A stretch of DNA of 40,775 bases from an uncultured Clostridia bacterium (GTDB lineage: Bacteria > Bacillota > Clostridia > Oscillospirales > Ruminococcaceae), in the NCBI GenBank assembly GCA_947630845.1, contig CANRJB010000004.1, positions 1-40,775 on the forward strand. Direction: 5' to 3'. A program made the position numbers and the translations under genes. Positions within the stretch are counted from its first letter, which is position 1. Each line of letters opens with the position of its first letter. The notes below the pieces were generated by a model. It was given only the letters and a program-made list of their open reading frames with translations, had not been told where the DNA came from and made no database searches. Positions 2,437 through 10,748 of this stretch are shown here, piece by piece.

Positions 2437-5394
2437 CTATTCACTTTTACTTACAATTTCCTTTATGATCTGCACCATTTGCTTATTATTGAGTTGCTTT
2501 CGGAAGTGAACTGTATAGCCGTCTTTGGATAACATCTCAAAAAAGATTTCTGCACATTCAATACGAACCGCCTCAGCTCCTCTAAGATCAGACTTACCCT
2601 CAACATCTTTCGTTTCGATCACTACATTCAAATCCTTAGTGCCGTCCTTTCGCTTTACAACATACATAAAGTCGGGACTGTATGTACCTCCAGTAATTGT
2701 AGGAATAGCGATGCTTCTGCGAGGTATCTTACCATATACCACGATTTCATCGACCTCTGCTTCAATGTTTTCCTTTTCAAGTGGAGAATCGTATGCAATC
2801 GCATCATACAGATACTTTTTGCTTACTGTACCTGGTACAAGTTTTGTTCCGATTCGCCCTTGTGCAATATCATCTCTCGGTGTACCATCAGCATAGGTAA
2901 GTGCCGTAGCTCCAAGCGGTACTTTACTCTGCACATACTTAAACCTTTTTTGATGATTCTCATTTTTCCATGTGATAAAAGCCGAACAGAATGAAGCAAT
3001 CGTATTTTCATTAAAGAATCTACCGTCAAGCCCATTACATTCAGAACTATATTTGCACAGAGCTGAGTGAAGCATCGTTATAGGAATATTGGTTTGTGCT
3101 GATATTCGTTTGAGAAATTCGTTGTATTTTACAGGCTTTTCAATGATATACTGTACGCCCGATTCTGTTACAGTCTGCAATAAACCATCCCTTGCTTCAA
3201 CCGATTGTCTGCTGCTGGATATTGAAACGTCAGTGAAAATATCACCACTTTTAAGAATGCTCAGTATTGCATCTTCAATTTTATCAGTTAAGTCCTTATC
3301 ATAGAACAGTAAATAGCGTTGATTGATCTTTTCCCACAACTCACGCAATTCACTGTAAACAGCTTTTCTGATTTTAACAGGTTGCAGCTTTTCCTTGTTT
3401 CTGTCCTTAATCTTTCCTGTTTGCAAACCTGTTGCGAAGTCAGGATACTCTGCAAAGAAAGCATCTTTATTATCTGATTTGATTTGATATTTCCTATCAA
3501 TATAACCTTTTTGAAGCAGCTCAATAAACAAATCATCTGCGCCTTTGCCGAGTTTAGTTGCAACCTCAGCGAGCGTTTCGTCTGTCAGTATCGATGTCTG
3601 CGGTATCTCGCCATTTATCTGCTCTACAAGCTGTTGAGCAAAATCCGCTTCTGTGAAGTCAACAATATAATTAAGCTGAAAATCCTCGTTAGCAATTCTG
3701 TTTCCGTTTTCATCAACAGGCAGTCGCAGACCTCTGCCGACTTCCTGAAGTTTGCTGATCTCACTTCCGCTTGAACGCAGTTTCGCTATTGTAAATACGT
3801 TAGGATTATCCCAACCTTCTTTCAGCGTCCATTTGGAGAACAGAAAACGAAGTGTGTTAAAGCTGCCGTCCTCGTTCTTGAATGAAATAAGCTGTTTTTT
3901 ACCGTGAAGTATGATATCAACTTCTTTGGCTATATCTTCATCTGAATCGCTGTTATCTTGTGCGAAATATCCTGCATGGCAGGAAGAAATGTCAGCGAGG
4001 CTGGCTTCAAGGTAAGCCCTATATTCCGATTCATGTTCGTTAAGACCGCTGGTCGTCTTTTCAATTTGTTCTTTCAGCAAGCGCTCAAAGGTTTTAAGCA
4101 AATAAGGTTCTTTACCGCTATCGTCTGTACGATAAGAGGATATATCGTCAATGAAAAACAGAGCTAAGGTCTTTATCTTGTAATTCCTGTTAAAGTTCTC
4201 TCTTTCCGTCTCAAAGTGACGATATAATGCGAGTTTCAACATTTGCTCCTGATAAGAGGACATATAAATATCTACATCAAGTTCCTCGCCCTTAGATTTC
4301 TCTATGCCATTGGAAAAAAGAACCGATGATTTACCGATAGCATCAATGGTCACACCCTCAAAAGCACTGCTGATGATAGATAGCGAATCATCGGGTTTTA
4401 ATGTATAAGTTTTGGTAGGTTCACCCTTGCTGATATATTGGAAATTAACAGAATCATTTTTAACAATAGACGTGATCTTGACCTTTTCATCACGCTTAGA
4501 TAAAGGCTCAAAATGCTCCTTTACTACGCCTTTTATCAGTCCAAGATTGAAAGAATCACAAGCATTCAGGTCATAGACTAAGTTGCGGTAATCACTAACA
4601 GCTTGTTTGGATTTGCCCTTGCCGACCGTAATTTCGGGGAATGTTGCTCCGAAACGGATAATACACTGGGGCTTTAATTCCTCTGTGATTGCTTTATAAG
4701 CCGTTTGAGTTCTCGAAAAGCGGTGCGGCTCATCTATGATGACAAAAGGCTTTGTCGCTCTCAGCGCATCAAAAGGGCGATAATAGCCCTCTACACCGAA
4801 ATCGTAATCATCACTTTTCAGCATTTTACTGCCTGTAAGAAGCTGCATATTTACGAGCAGGACATATATCTTTCCTGTATTCTGGCAGGAACCTCTGATA
4901 AAGTCACTCACCACATTCGGAAAGAATGAACGTCCTTTCTTCTTGTTCTTGACAGCTTCAAGGACACCAAGCTCAATATCCGTGCCGTAACCACAGCCGT
5001 CAGAGAAATGTCTGCGAGCGTAGCCGTCCTGCATAAATGCTGCTGTACCTGCTTTTATAGCAAGTGACGGAACGGCGATGATGAATTTGTTGATACCATA
5101 GCGCTTATGCAGTTCATATATCACCTTAGTGTAAACATAGGTCTTCCCAGTACCCGTTTCCATTTTTATATCAAGACTGAGTATATCATCTTCGGGCGGT
5201 ACATAGCTGTGTTCACCTCTGAGAGATTTTTGCAGCTCTCTGATATTATGTTCAACATTGCTGTCATTAAGGGATATATGGGGATTTTCAAAATACTGCT
5301 TTGGGGCAGAGATATGTACTCCCTCAAACACACGGCTTACCGCATCAATAGCAGCCTGCTGGTGAGGAAGGTCTTTTTGTAAGATAAGTTCCAT
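2437..5394 (-). CDS. res: Type III restriction enzyme, Res subunit
   Basis: This is the 985-residue helicase-nuclease subunit of a type III restriction-modification system. It needs Mod for DNA recognition and uses ATP to communicate between two inversely oriented sites before cutting. The SF2 helicase motifs are in order: Walker A GTGKT (81-85), motif II DEPH (221-224), motif III GATF (249-252), and motif VI QEVGRGLR (550-557). The C-terminal endonuclease has a PD-(D/E)xK layout, with SPDF (906-909) and VIETK (925-929). Length is normal for the family (about 900-1000) and all key residues are present. The start ATG follows the mod stop with one base between, and its GAGG ribosome binding site lies inside the end of mod, so the two are co-translated. 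Terminator copy 2 follows. Confidence 0.95.
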   Translation of the reverse strand: MELILQKDLPHQQAAIDAVSRVFEGVHISAPKQYFENPHISLNDSNVEHNIRELQKSLRGEHSYVPPEDDILSLDIKMETGTGKTYVYTKVIYELHKRYGINKFIIAVPSLAIKAGTAAFMQDGYARRHFSDGCGYGTDIELGVLEAVKNKKKGRSFFPNVVSDFIRGSCQNTGKIYVLLVNMQLLTGSKMLKSDDYDFGVEGYYRPFDALRATKPFVIIDEPHRFSRTQTAYKAITEELKPQCIIRFGATFPEITVGKGKSKQAVSDYRNLVYDLNACDSFNLGLIKGVVKEHFEPLSKRDEKVKITSIVKNDSVNFQYISKGEPTKTYTLKPDDSLSIISSAFEGVTIDAIGKSSVLFSNGIEKSKGEELDVDIYMSSYQEQMLKLALYRHFETERENFNRNYKIKTLALFFIDDISSYRTDDSGKEPYLLKTFERLLKEQIEKTTSGLNEHESEYRAYLEASLADISSCHAGYFAQDNSDSDEDIAKEVDIILHGKKQLISFKNEDGSFNTLRFLFSKWTLKEGWDNPNVFTIAKLRSSGSEISKLQEVGRGLRLPVDENGNRIANEDFQLNYIVDFTEADFAQQLVEQINGEIPQTSILTDETLAEVATKLGKGADDLFIELLQKGYIDRKYQIKSDNKDAFFAEYPDFATGLQTGKIKDRNKEKLQPVKIRKAVYSELRELWEKINQRYLLFYDKDLTDKIEDAILSILKSGDIFTDVSISSSRQSVEARDGLLQTVTESGVQYIIEKPVKYNEFLKRISAQTNIPITMLHSALCKYSSECNGLDGRFFNENTIASFCSAFITWKNENHQKRFKYVQSKVPLGATALTYADGTPRDDIAQGRIGTKLVPGTVSKKYLYDAIAYDSPLEKENIEAEVDEIVVYGKIPRRSIAIPTITGGTYSPDFMYVVKRKDGTKDLNVVIETKDVEGKSDLRGAEAVRIECAEIFFEMLSKDGYTVHFRKQLNNKQMVQIIKEIVSKSE

Positions 5395-7645: not shown

Positions 7646-8830
7646 TCATGCTCCATTTTCATGCGGACAGTGTTCCTTTTGAAAAATAACATGGTAAGCT
7701 TCCTCAGCCATGCGCCGGTAGGCAGCATCACTGGGATGCAGATGGTCACCGCTATCATACCCCGGTGCAAATCTTGCCGGATGTGACGAATCACAGACTG
7801 CCTTGTCAAAGTCAATGCAGCCATCTGCCTCATTTGTTGTCCGCATCCACGCATTGATCGCTGTACGAAGCTCTTCCCGGAAGTCTGCATAGGTACGCCA
7901 ACCCTCGATTGGAAGAAGCGTACCGAGCCATATCTTCATGCCCATCTCTCTTGCCCATGCGATATACTGACGCAGACCTGCGATCATTTCTTCCGCAGTG
8001 GGAAGATCACTCCACGGACGGAAGGGATTGACATCCGTGCCGACAGGATGGATAATATCATTGATGCCATGCTGAATGATGACATGATCTGCACCTGTGA
8101 CAGGAAATTCATGCGGAAAGCGAATCGAACCCTTTAATCCATAAGATTCATAGGTCACATTGTCATATTGCCGCAGGATACGTGTACCACTTGCCGCTTT
8201 ACGGATGATGGAAACGTTTCCGTCACCTTCATTCAGCGTTTTTTGTATCAGATGATCCGGCCACGCCTGTGCGGTAATGGAATCGCCATAGCAGACAATG
8301 CAATGATTGTCCGGAGATGTCAGTATGTCGATGTCACTTAGAAAATAAAAGCAGTTGATTTTTTTGGAATATTCCAGAGGCAGAATGTCCTCATCCGCAT
8401 AATCACCGACTGCAAAATACCCTTCAGACAGCGGTCCGGTAATGATCACAGCAGACCGCATTTCTGTGAAGCCTTCAAAATACATGCTGACAGCGATTTT
8501 TTCTCCACGCCTGACCGGAAATGGCAGGGGATCACTTTGCAGCCTTGCTCCGGCAGGGAGCGTTACGGAACGGCTGCCGTCAAAAGTCAGGGGAACGCTG
8601 TCGGAAACCTCTGCACCACGGACAGAGCGTGCAACAGATGCATGATGAATGGTGACAGGTTCATTTCCACAAAAATTATCAAATGTAACCCTGATTGCCT
8701 TTCCATCGAGCATCATTGTCATCGGATACCGGAGTGTCAGATGCTTTCCATAATTTTCCGGGCGACGCTCCCGGATGGAGATGGCATTTCCCCATACTGC
8801 AACCCATTTTTCATCATTTTTCCGCTCCAT
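7646..8830 (-). CDS. SGNH/GDSL-family hydrolase (esterase-like)
   Basis: This is a 394-residue serine hydrolase of the SGNH fold, likely an esterase or deacetylase acting on an acylated carbohydrate. Block I is GDSIT, with nucleophile Ser184. Block II Gly is about 215 (AASGTRI), block III is HGIND with Asn257, and block V is DHLH with Asp362 and His365. The catalytic domain is residues ~175-385. Residues 1-170 form a separate beta-rich N-terminal domain, like that seen in some two-domain carbohydrate esterases; this resemblance is an inference. There is no signal peptide, so it is probably cytoplasmic. The start at 8830 has GAGG about 9 nt upstream. The frame is open to 8899, but the promoter (-10 at 8871-8876) lies inside that extension. 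It is divergent from the corC-type gene. The substrate cannot be told from sequence. Confidence 0.85.
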   Translation of the reverse strand: MERKNDEKWVAVWGNAISIRERRPENYGKHLTLRYPMTMMLDGKAIRVTFDNFCGNEPVTIHHASVARSVRGAEVSDSVPLTFDGSRSVTLPAGARLQSDPLPFPVRRGEKIAVSMYFEGFTEMRSAVIITGPLSEGYFAVGDYADEDILPLEYSKKINCFYFLSDIDILTSPDNHCIVCYGDSITAQAWPDHLIQKTLNEGDGNVSIIRKAASGTRILRQYDNVTYESYGLKGSIRFPHEFPVTGADHVIIQHGINDIIHPVGTDVNPFRPWSDLPTAEEMIAGLRQYIAWAREMGMKIWLGTLLPIEGWRTYADFREELRTAINAWMRTTNEADGCIDFDKAVCDSSHPARFAPGYDSGDHLHPSDAAYRRMAEEAYHVIFQKEHCPHENGA

Positions 8831-8870
8831 AACTGTATCCTCACTCTCCGGCATAATGATTCCTATATTC

Positions 8871-8899
8871 ATTATAACGGATTTATTGTGTTTTGTCAA
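8871..8899 (-). promoter_or_regulatory. Promoter of the SGNH hydrolase gene
   Basis: On the minus strand, TTGACA (8894-8899) and TATAAT (8871-8876) are a consensus pair with a 17-bp spacer. The start should fall near 8864. This fixes the hydrolase start codon downstream of 8864. Confidence 0.88.
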
Positions 8900-8939
8900 C
8901 AGTTGTATTGTGCATTATGAAAAAAACATGGGCTGGCCC

Positions 8940-8968
8940 TTGACAAAGCAGCACACCTGTGCTATAAT
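8940..8968 (+). promoter_or_regulatory. Promoter of the corC-type gene
   Basis: TTGACA (8940-8945) and TATAAT (8963-8968) with a 17-bp spacer make a consensus housekeeping promoter, divergent from the hydrolase promoter 40 bp away. Transcription should start near 8975, giving a leader of about 190 nt before the corC-type start. Confidence 0.88.
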
Positions 8969-8974
8969 GAGCTT

Positions 8975-9164
8975 ATATTGAAAAGGAGGAGCATATGACA
9001 CACAGCAGCACAGATGATGCGGGTGTCCCGTATCATAGTACGAATACATATCTATCGGCAGGGCATAGCAGGAATTTTGCTATACCCTTTTTGTGTTTCC
9101 TGCATGGATCTTCAACGAAAAAGATGATTTATGATTTGCATGATGAGAAGAGGAGATCCGTGAG
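8975..9164 (+). promoter_or_regulatory. Structured leader with terminator and alternative stem
   Basis: The leader contains a 10-bp hairpin with one G-U pair (ATGATGCGGG 9014-9023, CCCGTATCAT 9027-9036). A terminator-like hairpin follows (GGGCATAGCA 9061-9070, TGCTATACCC 9078-9087, one mismatch), directly followed by TTTTT at 9088-9092. A third stem, GCAGGAA (9068-9074) with TTCCTGC (9097-9103), shares bases 9068-9070 with the terminator left arm, so the two cannot form fully together. This is the layout of a transcription attenuator or riboswitch. It does not match any riboswitch consensus I can recall. A 57-codon ORF also spans it. Confidence 0.6.
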
Positions 9165-9168
9165 ATGA
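8995..9168 (+). CDS. Possible 57-aa leader ORF overlapping the corC-type start
   Basis: An ATG at 8995 follows AAAGGAGGAG at ideal spacing and opens a 57-codon frame starting MTHSSTDDAGVPYHSTN and ending EKRRSVR. Its TGA (9166-9168) overlaps the next ATG as ATGA, so ribosomes finishing this ORF could restart on the corC-type gene. The peptide is polar, has no membrane segment, no signal peptide and no run of one amino acid typical of amino-acid attenuators. It covers the hairpins of the leader, so translation through it would melt them. It may be a real small protein, a coupling leader peptide, or a chance ORF over a riboswitch. The strong ribosome binding site and the ATGA overlap are the reasons for listing it. 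Confidence 0.4.
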   Translation: MTHSSTDDAGVPYHSTNTYLSAGHSRNFAIPFLCFLHGSSTKKMIYDLHDEKRRSVR

Positions 9169-10427
9169 GTGATATGTTTTCATTGATTTTGATTCTCATT
9201 TGTATTTTGCTTTCCATGTTTTTTTCGGCAGCAGAAACGGCATTTAATTCCGTCAGCCGTATCCGGTTGAAAAATAGAGAAAGTGAAGGCAGCAAAAAGG
9301 CTGCTCTCGTCCTGAAATTATTGGATCAGTATGACAGGATGCTGTCTGCGATCCTGATCGGGAATAATATTGTCAATATTGCATGTACATCATTGGCAAC
9401 CTTATTATTTGTGGCATTGTTGAAAGACGAGAATCTGGGAGCAACGGTCTCTACGGCAGTGGTGACGGTTGTACTGCTGATTTTTGGCGAAATTTCTCCG
9501 AAAACCATTGCAAAGGAAAATGCGGAACGCTTTTCCATGTTTGCCGCACCGTTCCTGAACGGCATTATGATACTGCTGACCCCGTTTACTTGGATCTTCG
9601 GACTCTGGCAGAAAATGCTGAGCCATGTTTTCAAGTCCTCCGGAGACTCCGGCATTACGGAACAGGAGCTTCTGACCATTGTGGATGAAGCGGAACAGGG
9701 TGGTAACATTGATGCGGACGAAGGGGAGCTGATTCGTTCAGCCATTGAATTCAATGAGCTGGAGGTCAGGGACATCTTTACACCCCGTATCGACATTCAG
9801 GCGATTCGTTCAGACATGACAAAAGAAGAAACGGCAAAGATATTTTCCGAATCCGGTTATTCCCGGCTGCCGGTTTATGAAGATACGATCGACAATATTA
9901 TCGGCATCATCTATCTGAAAGACTTCTATAATACTGCATTTATGAAAAAGGCAGATATTTCTGAGATCATCAAGCCCGTTATTTTTGTTCCGAAAAGTAA
10001 AAAGATAGCAGATCTCCGGAAGGAATTACAGGAGCAGCAACTGCATATTGCTGTGGTGATGGATGAATTCGGATGTACCGTAGGGCTTGTGACACTGGAG
10101 GATATTCTGGAGGAACTGGTTGGCGAGATCTGGGACGAACATGATGAAATTGTGAGGGAGATTTCTAAGGTAAATGACAACACATGGGTCGTATCCGGTA
10201 AGGCAAATGTGGAAAAGGTTTTTGAAATTCTGGATATGGATTGCGCCTTTGAAGCAATGACAGTCAGCGGATGGGTCATGGAAATTCTGGAAAAAATTCC
10301 AAGTGAAGGCGATACTTTCGAGAATGACGGACTGCATGTCAAGGTCCTGCGCATGTATGGGAAGCGCATCGAGCAAGTGGAGATCGTTAAGATACCCGAA
10401 GCGGACGATGAAAAAACAGAAGAATAA
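9165..10427 (+). CDS. HlyC/CorC-family (CNNM-type) membrane protein
   Basis: This 420-residue integral membrane protein of the CNNM/CorC (DUF21) family is implicated in Mg2+ and Co2+ export or homeostasis. The N-terminal membrane domain (~1-190) begins MSDMFSLILILICILLSMFF and includes SAAETAFNSVSR and FGEISPKTIAKENAE, both family hallmarks. Two CBS motifs follow (~205-330), with FTPRIDIQAI, YSRLPVYEDTIDNIIGI and VVMDEFGCTVGLVTLEDILE; these bind adenine nucleotides in the family. The C-terminal CorC_HlyC domain (~340-415) starts near NTWVVSGKANVEKVF. The length is normal. AGGAGA lies about 10 nt before the ATG. The ion specificity is not visible. Expression is probably controlled by the leader upstream. 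I would not call it a hemolysin; that is a historical family name. Confidence 0.9.
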   Translation: MSDMFSLILILICILLSMFFSAAETAFNSVSRIRLKNRESEGSKKAALVLKLLDQYDRMLSAILIGNNIVNIACTSLATLLFVALLKDENLGATVSTAVVTVVLLIFGEISPKTIAKENAERFSMFAAPFLNGIMILLTPFTWIFGLWQKMLSHVFKSSGDSGITEQELLTIVDEAEQGGNIDADEGELIRSAIEFNELEVRDIFTPRIDIQAIRSDMTKEETAKIFSESGYSRLPVYEDTIDNIIGIIYLKDFYNTAFMKKADISEIIKPVIFVPKSKKIADLRKELQEQQLHIAVVMDEFGCTVGLVTLEDILEELVGEIWDEHDEIVREISKVNDNTWVVSGKANVEKVFEILDMDCAFEAMTVSGWVMEILEKIPSEGDTFENDGLHVKVLRMYGKRIEQVEIVKIPEADDEKTEE

Positions 10428-10568: not shown

Positions 10569-10748
10569 ATGAAGGGTGAATTTACGCAGAAGGGCAAAGA
10601 AGCTATGGAGCGTTTCAAGATGGAGTCCGCCAGTGAGGTCGGTGTAACTCTGAAGCAGGGTTACAATGGCGACCTGACTGCAAGAGAGGCTGGCTCTATC
10701 GGTGGGCAGATGGTCAAGAAGATGATCGATGCCTATAAGATGCAGTAA
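10569..10748 (+). CDS. Alpha/beta-type small acid-soluble spore protein
   Basis: This 59-residue protein matches the alpha/beta SASP family, which coats and protects DNA in the dormant spore core and is degraded on germination by the protease GPR. The conserved halves are visible: MESASEVGVTLKQGYNGDLT (about residues 18-37), where the MES/ASE stretch corresponds to the GPR cleavage region, and AREAGSIGGQMVKKMIDAY (38-56), the DNA-contacting C-terminal motif GSxGGxMVK. It is short for the family (60-75) because the N-terminus is brief. The ATG at 10569 has GAGGAG about 8 nt upstream; an earlier ATG at 10562 is too close. A forespore-type promoter lies upstream and a strong terminator downstream, so it is monocistronic. 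It indicates a spore-forming lineage. Confidence 0.88.
   Translation: MKGEFTQKGKEAMERFKMESASEVGVTLKQGYNGDLTAREAGSIGGQMVKKMIDAYKMQ

Follow-up and report, generated by a model that had tools for sequence, protein, structure and literature searches.

A Putative Translation-Gated Attenuator With an Acidic Leader Peptide Upstream of CNNM/CorC Genes in Clostridia

Anatomy of the corC Locus

The window, which is the whole stretch of DNA analyzed here, comprises 40,775 nucleotides from an uncultured Clostridia bacterium whose genome (G000) measures 2.03 Mb; judged by the CNNM/CorC protein, its nearest named relatives are Ruminococcus-like Oscillospiraceae assemblies, several of them of rumen origin. 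On the forward strand, a sigma-70 type promoter (TTGACA-17-TATAAT, 8940 to 8968) matches the consensus at 12 of 12 positions and carries a TG ahead of the -10 box, and TTGAC...TATAAT-like boxes are visible by eye upstream of many relatives' leaders. Transcription would start at about 8975, leaving hardly any RNA on the 5' side of the Shine-Dalgarno sequence (AAAGGAGG, 8982 to 8989) of a leader ORF of 57 codons (8995 to 9168, with its ATG at 8995; MTHSSTDDAGVPYHS...). This ORF is without a Pfam match, and leaders led by a Shine-Dalgarno sequence also occur in relatives. Several features lie within it, all on the same strand: a pair of acidic codons (Asp-Asp, codons 7-8, 9013 to 9018), which is the proposed ribosome-destabilizing sensor; a proline codon (Pro12, 9028 to 9030); a hairpin over codons 7-14 (hairpin 1, 9014 to 9036, -13.3 kcal/mol), possibly a pause hairpin or ribosome brake; an intrinsic terminator (9061 to 9092), comprised of a stem with one mismatch (9061-9069/9079-9087, -10.8 kcal/mol) and a T5 run (9088 to 9092); and the Shine-Dalgarno sequence of the downstream gene (AGAGGAG, 9149 to 9155). 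The stop codon of the leader overlaps the ATG of corC (9165) as ATGA, and the corC/CNNM gene (9165 to 10427, 420 aa) encodes the Pfam domains CNNM, CBS, and CorC_HlyC, all above cut-off. A first-pass annotation of the same DNA had described two strong hairpins, a terminator with a T5 run, a 57-codon ORF with an ideal ribosome binding site that crosses the structure and ends in an ATGA overlap, and a transporter of the Mg2+ type as the target, each of which is present at this locus.

Two neighboring features were also observed. On the reverse strand, a second perfect TTGACA-17-TATAAT promoter (8871 to 8899) probably serves the divergent GDSL-hydrolase gene (7646 to 8899); because this promoter overlaps the TTG listed as the start of that ORF, translation probably begins further inside. 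Directly past corC, on the forward strand, is a gene for an alpha/beta-type small acid-soluble spore protein (10569 to 10748), which hints at possible sporulation.

The closest solved structure to the CorC protein is 7m1t_A (E 6.8e-58), and G000, a genome listed as 91.84% complete, has no CNNM match other than the corC product. By family membership, this product is probably an exporter of Mg2+ (or polyamines). The CNNM relatives include the polyamine exporter PaeA, whose family is listed below cut-off, so the substrate may not be Mg2+. Polyamines, too, stabilize ribosomes, and since they are also exported by one CNNM relative, they are considered here as an alternative cation. CNNM/CorC relatives counter Mg2+ excess, an example being MpfA in B. 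subtilis and S. aureus (PMC8844918, PMC5122736), and some relatives are salt-responsive (PMC8844918); in Salmonella, corC is upregulated in high Mg2+, as is mgpA at neutral or alkaline pH, and a ribosome-destabilizing sequence within CorC is suggested as the cause of the corC rise (PMC12421838). The M-box (RF00380) has no match in the 38 genomes of the genus, the window's included, and MgtE was not found in G000, so regulation here is not by the commonest Mg2+ riboswitch.

Leader Peptide and RNA Structure Within the Genus

A DNA search of the 38 genus genomes, including that of the window, gave matches in 18, and among the 17 matching loci outside G000, a corC homologue is present in 15 and absent in two (L017, L018). 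By protein search, corC occurs in 31 of the 38 genomes, and its start could be placed in 30, the window included. An early acidic pair (Asp-Asp, Glu-Asp, or Asp-Glu) is encoded in the leader ORF of 28 of these 30 orthologues, with the pairs of L224, L225, L237, and L247 taken from the printed sequence; the two exceptions are L236, which has no acidic pair in the stretch printed, and L244, for which just 60 bases upstream are available. Seven duplicate loci were dropped, and the set of 26 genus leaders used below omits L238 and L247, which the pattern missed, though both have the acidic pair.

The commonest form of the genus leader is MTHSSSDDAGVP[Y/C]HS. Asp codons vary between GAT and GAC, Asp and Glu interchange (L224, L225, L237), and one leader (L231) lacks Val-Pro owing to an in-frame gap of six bases. 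The proline at the conserved place is always encoded by CCG and the serine nearly always by AGT, which hints at an additional constraint at the nucleotide level. The peptide is thus conserved beyond acidity, and a model of pure acidity does not account for P-Y/C-H-S. The ATGA overlap with the corC start occurs in 6 of the 26 leaders. Separately, a group of similar short leaders (L237, L239-L243, L252, and L238) ends in (K)KSRRL or ESRRL and is without a called terminator (L238 was not tested); the basic C-terminus of these leaders recalls that of MgtL.

The total folding energy of the window's leader stands out only slightly (z -1.68), being equaled or bettered by 11 of 200 shuffles. When the window's peptide was recoded synonymously 300 times, 98.7% of the recodings gave a less stable hairpin 1 than the native sequence (z -3.46), and across the 26 genus leaders, each compared with 300 such recodings, the mean z is -1.60. 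The hairpin is lost in L237, L239, L241-L243, and L249-L251, the last three of which keep the terminator and the peptide; a role for hairpin 1 as a universal element was rejected, given the several relatives without it. For the 15 terminator-bearing genus leaders (alignment A1), the two stems together have 86.5% standard pairs, versus 36-52% when slid, with the stem structure taken from the window and so favoring it; hairpin 1 alone is paired in 87.9% of cells. Two-sided changes occur at five pairs, a number matched by 60 of 500 shuffles, the covariation score is matched by 6 of 500, and the RNAalifold covariation term is only -0.11 kcal/mol. The first-pass annotation had made its reading depend on covariation among homologues; this modest covariation answers the point weakly, and the stronger evidence lies at the codon level and in the geometry of the leader.

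The terminator was called in 15 of the 26 genus leaders (the automatic call in L234 is misplaced, and its terminator is visible in A1), and the leader ORF remains open beyond the terminator in all 15. Of the 13 leaders in which a stricter finder called the terminator, all 13 keep the ORF frame open across it, versus 4 and 5 for the other two frames. In the 11 leaders that retain the peptide and have no called terminator, another output must act. The Shine-Dalgarno sequence of corC is mostly paired in the window's fold (unpaired 0.22, versus 0.53 in shuffles); a stem hiding this site was rejected as a common element, being not general among the 26 leaders. The overlapping alternative stem of the first-pass annotation (9068-9074/9097-9103) folds to -9.6 kcal/mol in isolation but has a probability of 0.0 in the computed ensemble, and at 50.6% paired, versus 36-48% slid, it is not conserved.

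Folding of the nascent RNA bears on how a ribosome could act on this leader. With no ribosome, or with the RNA masked to 9030, 9045, or 9060, the terminator pairs form with probability 0.9-1.0 (the mismatch aside), and with masking to 9070, no terminator pairs can form. Stalling at the acidic codons alone therefore cannot turn the gene on: drop-off or stalling at Asp7-Asp8 should terminate transcription, and passage of the ribosome should permit read-through.

Searches against Rfam gave a single match at gathering in the window, an unrelated ribosomal leader (S10-Clostridia ribosomal protein leader, RF03136, 33822 to 33902, reverse strand, 45.2 bits), and two implausible matches, far below gathering, in the region 8850 to 9300 at E up to 10. 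Across 20 loci, no match at gathering lies in a leader, and the one T-box found, in L226 (3108 to 3382, forward strand), is on the opposite strand from the acidic leader of that locus (∼2830 to 2945, reverse strand), upstream of it and apart from it. No Rfam family fits the leader; the first-pass annotation had recognized no published consensus.

Acidic Leaders and Terminator Geometry Across Clostridia

The acidic early residues were missed in the first-pass annotation, and they recur in dissimilar corC leaders of other Clostridia families. Leaders outside the genus begin, for example, MDDGADADNC, MDDGDGETCH, MDESDDSDGNP, MDEPPPS, MDSDAGDSN, and MEDDSDSNNP, and what they have in common is mainly acidic, or acidic and proline, residues at positions 2-9. 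Named isolates with such a leader include Eisenbergiella tayi (L081) and Flavonifractor sp. AGMB03687 (L087). Two criteria were defined using the named and class corC loci, while the order loci were held out and unseen until then: criterion A, at least three D/E in residues 2-9, and criterion B, at least two D/E and at least three D/E/P. Criterion B identifies a leader at 40 of 86 named, 9 of 87 class, and 22 of 65 order loci, versus 8 of 312 control genes, and criterion A at 29, 8, and 13 of the same loci, versus 6 of the controls. When the 23 genus-like loci are set aside, 27 (A) and 36 (B) of the remaining 63 named loci qualify; the genus-like loci themselves give 2 of 23 (A) and 4 of 23 (B). 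The window's own leader has two acidic residues at positions 2-9 and falls under neither criterion; what ties it to the strongly acidic leaders is its acidic pair, together with the gene and the geometry.

Control genes encode at least 120 aa, have a start led by a Shine-Dalgarno sequence, lie 100 bases or more past the preceding long ORF, and give no CorC blast hit; the control DNA includes 20 stretches of 20 kb from the window's genome, and the gap and Shine-Dalgarno filter was applied to the controls only, not to the corC genes. Earlier controls for criterion A gave 2 of 158 genes in G000, 3 of 106 genes beside corC, and 6 of 865 Markov resamples of the DNA upstream of corC. All counts treat loci as independent, and the order set includes close relatives of named genomes (the leader of L253 is identical to that of L064), so it is held out by draw but is not independent by descent. 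Loci with fewer than 200 bases upstream were dropped (3 of 89 named, 1 of 88 class, 1 of 66 order), as were L196 and L284, in which the start was not located; five leaders that look spurious by eye (L301 and L318 in the order set; L191, L207, and L212 in the class set) are still counted.

Acidity concentrates at the beginning of these peptides. In 128 distinct leaders chosen for the best Shine-Dalgarno sequence, with no acid criterion, the acidic fractions at residues 2-8 are 0.44, 0.36, 0.18, 0.18, 0.19, 0.33, and 0.27, compared with 0.05-0.14 in control leaders (n = 100), and the corC leaders are near the control level from residue 9. Excluding the window's genus (106 leaders), the fractions are 0.53, 0.42, 0.21, 0.19, 0.19, 0.23, and 0.16, and in the genus alone (22 leaders) acidity peaks at residues 7-8 (0.82 each). 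The order loci under criterion B span 10 of the 16 families tested, or nine families, as one (f5) is spurious by eye. A first look at the class loci showed few acidic leaders, 0 of 9 corC loci in other genera of the window's own family fall under criterion B, and no leader of this kind precedes corC at 46 of 86 loci in the named set, 78 of 87 in the class set, and 43 of 65 in the order set.

Terminators accompany many of these leaders. A criterion B leader whose ORF abuts or overlaps a terminator is found at 25 of 86 named, 5 of 87 class, and 17 of 65 order loci, versus 1 of 312 controls. Among the 67 distinct criterion B leaders (four from the genus), the finder located a terminator for 42, relative to which the leader stop lies within 10 nt before the foot in 13, far before it in 3, inside the terminator in 9, and beyond it in 17 (28-31 nt past the stem in nine of the 17); in 39 of the 42, a ribosome finishing the ORF would thus end up on the terminator or directly against it. 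Within this geometry set, the terminator assigned to L037 is doubtful, as are three leaders (L054, L095, and L301). The frame in which the ORF crosses the terminator is similar in several families (...AYLR...AFLC), and the window's leader has ...AIPFLC.

A number of further observations were made at these loci. Additional acidic leaders with weaker Shine-Dalgarno sequences were seen by eye in L123, L132, L138, and L142, outside the counts. Two leaders upstream of corC look even more like MgtL: MDSVPRRRRSL... in L089, and KDDLPRRRRRFRVYLRC (with a TTG start) in L091. Flavonifractor-type genomes (L087, L090, L254-L257, L260, and others) have V/M-D-E-P-P leaders with GGTGA as the likely Shine-Dalgarno sequence, and a second open frame (VSPRGRTSAQ in L087) spans the same stretch as this leader. 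Where a class locus has no acidic leader (e.g., L119, L133, L139, L167), CorC itself often starts acidic (MDSDS, MDSY, MDDS), as though the main gene might house the sensor, which is what is suggested for enterobacterial CorC. A narrow DNA pattern for Asp-rich leaders gave one match in 291 class genomes, by eye the start of an FeoB-like ORF, and is too narrow to speak to specificity; a search of viral contigs with the transporter as query found nothing.

Proposed Mechanism, Alternatives, and Relation to Known Systems

The reading to which we give somewhat better than even odds has the ribosome as a cation sensor: translation of the leader would gate transcription attenuation, switching the exporter on at high Mg2+. 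The ORF has the marks of translation, and the suggestion in the first-pass annotation of an attenuator-like leader, with ribosome movement as the likely switch, is supported to this extent. In E. coli, ribosomes can stall or dissociate on adjacent acidic residues encoded early in a chain, and the EPDP of MgtL has this effect when Mg2+ is limiting, although di-acidic residues alone are insufficient for destabilization (PMC11282234). Here, a ribosome would load on the leader ORF once it is transcribed and encounter Asp codons 7-8 within a stable hairpin. At low cytosolic Mg2+ (or low levels of another ribosome-stabilizing cation), the nascent acidic peptide may destabilize or stall the ribosome at this point; with no ribosome over 9061 to 9092, the intrinsic terminator would fold and corC would go untranscribed. 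With plentiful Mg2+, the ribosome would pass, masking or opening the terminator so that transcription goes on, and the same ribosome would finish at the ATGA, where it could re-initiate on corC. The CNNM protein would then expel the excess cation. An exporter is expected to be on at high Mg2+, which matches the output given by the ORF-terminator geometry.

On a wider scale, the chances appear evenly balanced that these leaders form a widespread attenuator class in Clostridia, present in about nine order families and the genus, in which only a ribosome that survives the acidic codons masks the intrinsic terminator of an export-pump gene; the acidic/proline leaders of such a class would share little sequence and would constitute a counterpart of MgtL that is on at high Mg2+. 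None of the literature titles and abstract openings searched, a scope mostly outside subscription journals, describes acidic leader peptides ahead of clostridial CNNM/CorC genes, and the words hemolysin, CorC, and CNNM are absent from the main text of a 50-genome RNA survey (PMC11109978). In our judgment, sensing of Mg2+ excess and control of efflux seem less understood in bacteria than uptake. If the proposed reading is true, many Clostridia read ribosome stability as cation sufficiency to switch an exporter, inverting the logic of MgtL, and acidic codons at positions 2-9 together with a terminator inside or against the uORF provide a search signature for more such sensors.

A riboswitch for a metal ion or nucleotide, one of the options raised in the first-pass annotation, would have hairpin 1 as its aptamer and the alternative stem in competition with the terminator. 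Two stable hairpins ahead of a metal-transporter gene would suit this explanation, as would the stability of hairpin 1 beyond the demands of codon choice in most of the 26 leaders, but the Rfam searches place no match at gathering inside a leader and nothing plausible at E up to 10, the alternative stem is neither conserved nor populated, and L249-L251 dispense with hairpin 1 while keeping terminator and peptide. Conservation tracks codons, distant leaders have acidity in common, and what is conserved is a peptide with two simple hairpins instead of an aptamer; we regard a riboswitch as very unlikely. Attenuation of the classical amino-acid type, with the leader ribosome stalled by scarcity of charged Asp (or Pro) tRNA, fits the Asp-rich leaders of several families and is yet harder to credit: Asp and Glu interchange, other lineages have D-E-P-P, the target is a cation transporter and no Asp gene, and with no antiterminator found, stalling would terminate transcription, the reverse of the classical outcome. 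Hardly any weight is given to an absence of regulation, under which a small upstream gene would be co-transcribed with, and translationally coupled to, corC, the terminator being weak or there by chance. Such coupling would fit the ATGA overlap, seen in 6 of the 26 genus leaders, and the lack of a called terminator in 11 of them, whereas across families the leaders have no common C-terminal part and range from 12 to more than 50 codons, and both acidity and ORF-terminator geometry are above controls.

The peptide could also act by its exact sequence, as an arrest peptide (D-D-x-G-x-P-[Y/C]-H-S) whose stalling at a defined codon, responsive to an ion or the state of translation, sets the outcome. 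Conservation within the genus beyond acidity is what such a peptide would leave, and a C-terminal KKSRRL is common to most of the terminator-less group; however, a ribosome on codons 7-15 leaves the terminator intact, so arrest could only hold the gene off, and outside the genus it is acidity that recurs, with just scattered look-alikes of P-Y/C-H-S (TCHS, PCQS). We judge this to be unlikely but not negligible. Slightly less probable, in our estimate, is that the same leader reads general ribosome fitness (polyamines, EF-P/ABC-F factors, salt, or ribosome-targeting drugs) and couples export to it. The same output is expected from any destabilizer, and EttA rescues acidic pauses (PMC11282234), while CNNM relatives export polyamines or respond to salt (PMC8844918 for salt); against this, the reported role of the gene family is protection from Mg2+ (PMC12421838, PMC8844918, PMC5122736), and the precedents MgtL and MgtQ serve Mg2+ transporters (PMC11282234, PMC8092293).

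Like the proposed attenuator, the M-box (ykoK, RF00380) provides Mg2+-linked cis control of a transporter gene, but there the RNA itself senses Mg2+. Attenuators of the trp/his type are comprised of a leader ORF, a hairpin over the sensing codons, and an intrinsic terminator, with stalling favoring read-through. The leader described here has the same three parts; unlike the trp type, finished translation should favor read-through, and no antiterminator forming on stalling was found in a non-exhaustive search of pairings, the one candidate stem being unpopulated and unconserved. Nor do the sensing codons specify one amino acid that fits the operon, given the interchange of Asp and Glu and the D-E-P-P types.

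Closer parallels are found among the Mg2+-responsive genes of enteric bacteria. The destabilizing N-terminus of CorC (YbeX) and the YoaL leader of mgpA (yoaE) both concern CorC-family genes that rise with Mg2+, and ribosome stability or a leader peptide is suggested as the cause; unlike here, the YbeX sequence is inside CorC itself and the mechanism of the YoaL leader is hypothetical, and the available text does not describe an acidic uORF with an intrinsic terminator for either (PMC12421838). MgtQ, before mgtB of Salmonella, is likewise a uORF that controls a Mg2+ transporter, with destabilizing Asp2 and Glu5, but it acts on translation, where abortion frees the mgtB ribosome-binding site and raises expression (PMC8092293).

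The nearest likeness is to MgtL of mgtA (E. coli, Salmonella): there, a Mg2+ transporter gene is preceded by a short leader ORF with acidic and proline residues, and ribosome stability at early acidic codons reads Mg2+ (PMC11282234); the same read-out is proposed here. The window shares with it a short ORF led by a Shine-Dalgarno sequence with early acidic and proline residues (Asp7-Asp8 and Pro12, a weaker set than in other families), directly before a Mg2+ transporter gene, the Mg2+ substrate being assigned by family. In MgtL, the gene encodes an importer, termination is Rho-dependent, and abortion of translation turns the gene on; here, the gene encodes a probable exporter, an intrinsic terminator is placed within the ORF or directly against it, and abortion should turn the gene off. 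Aborted translation lifting Rho-dependent termination does not describe the window's leader, as judged by sequence and folding only. Because the intrinsic terminator persists both without a ribosome and with one at codons 7-8, the leader is viewed as MgtL-like in its working and is not filed as MgtL.
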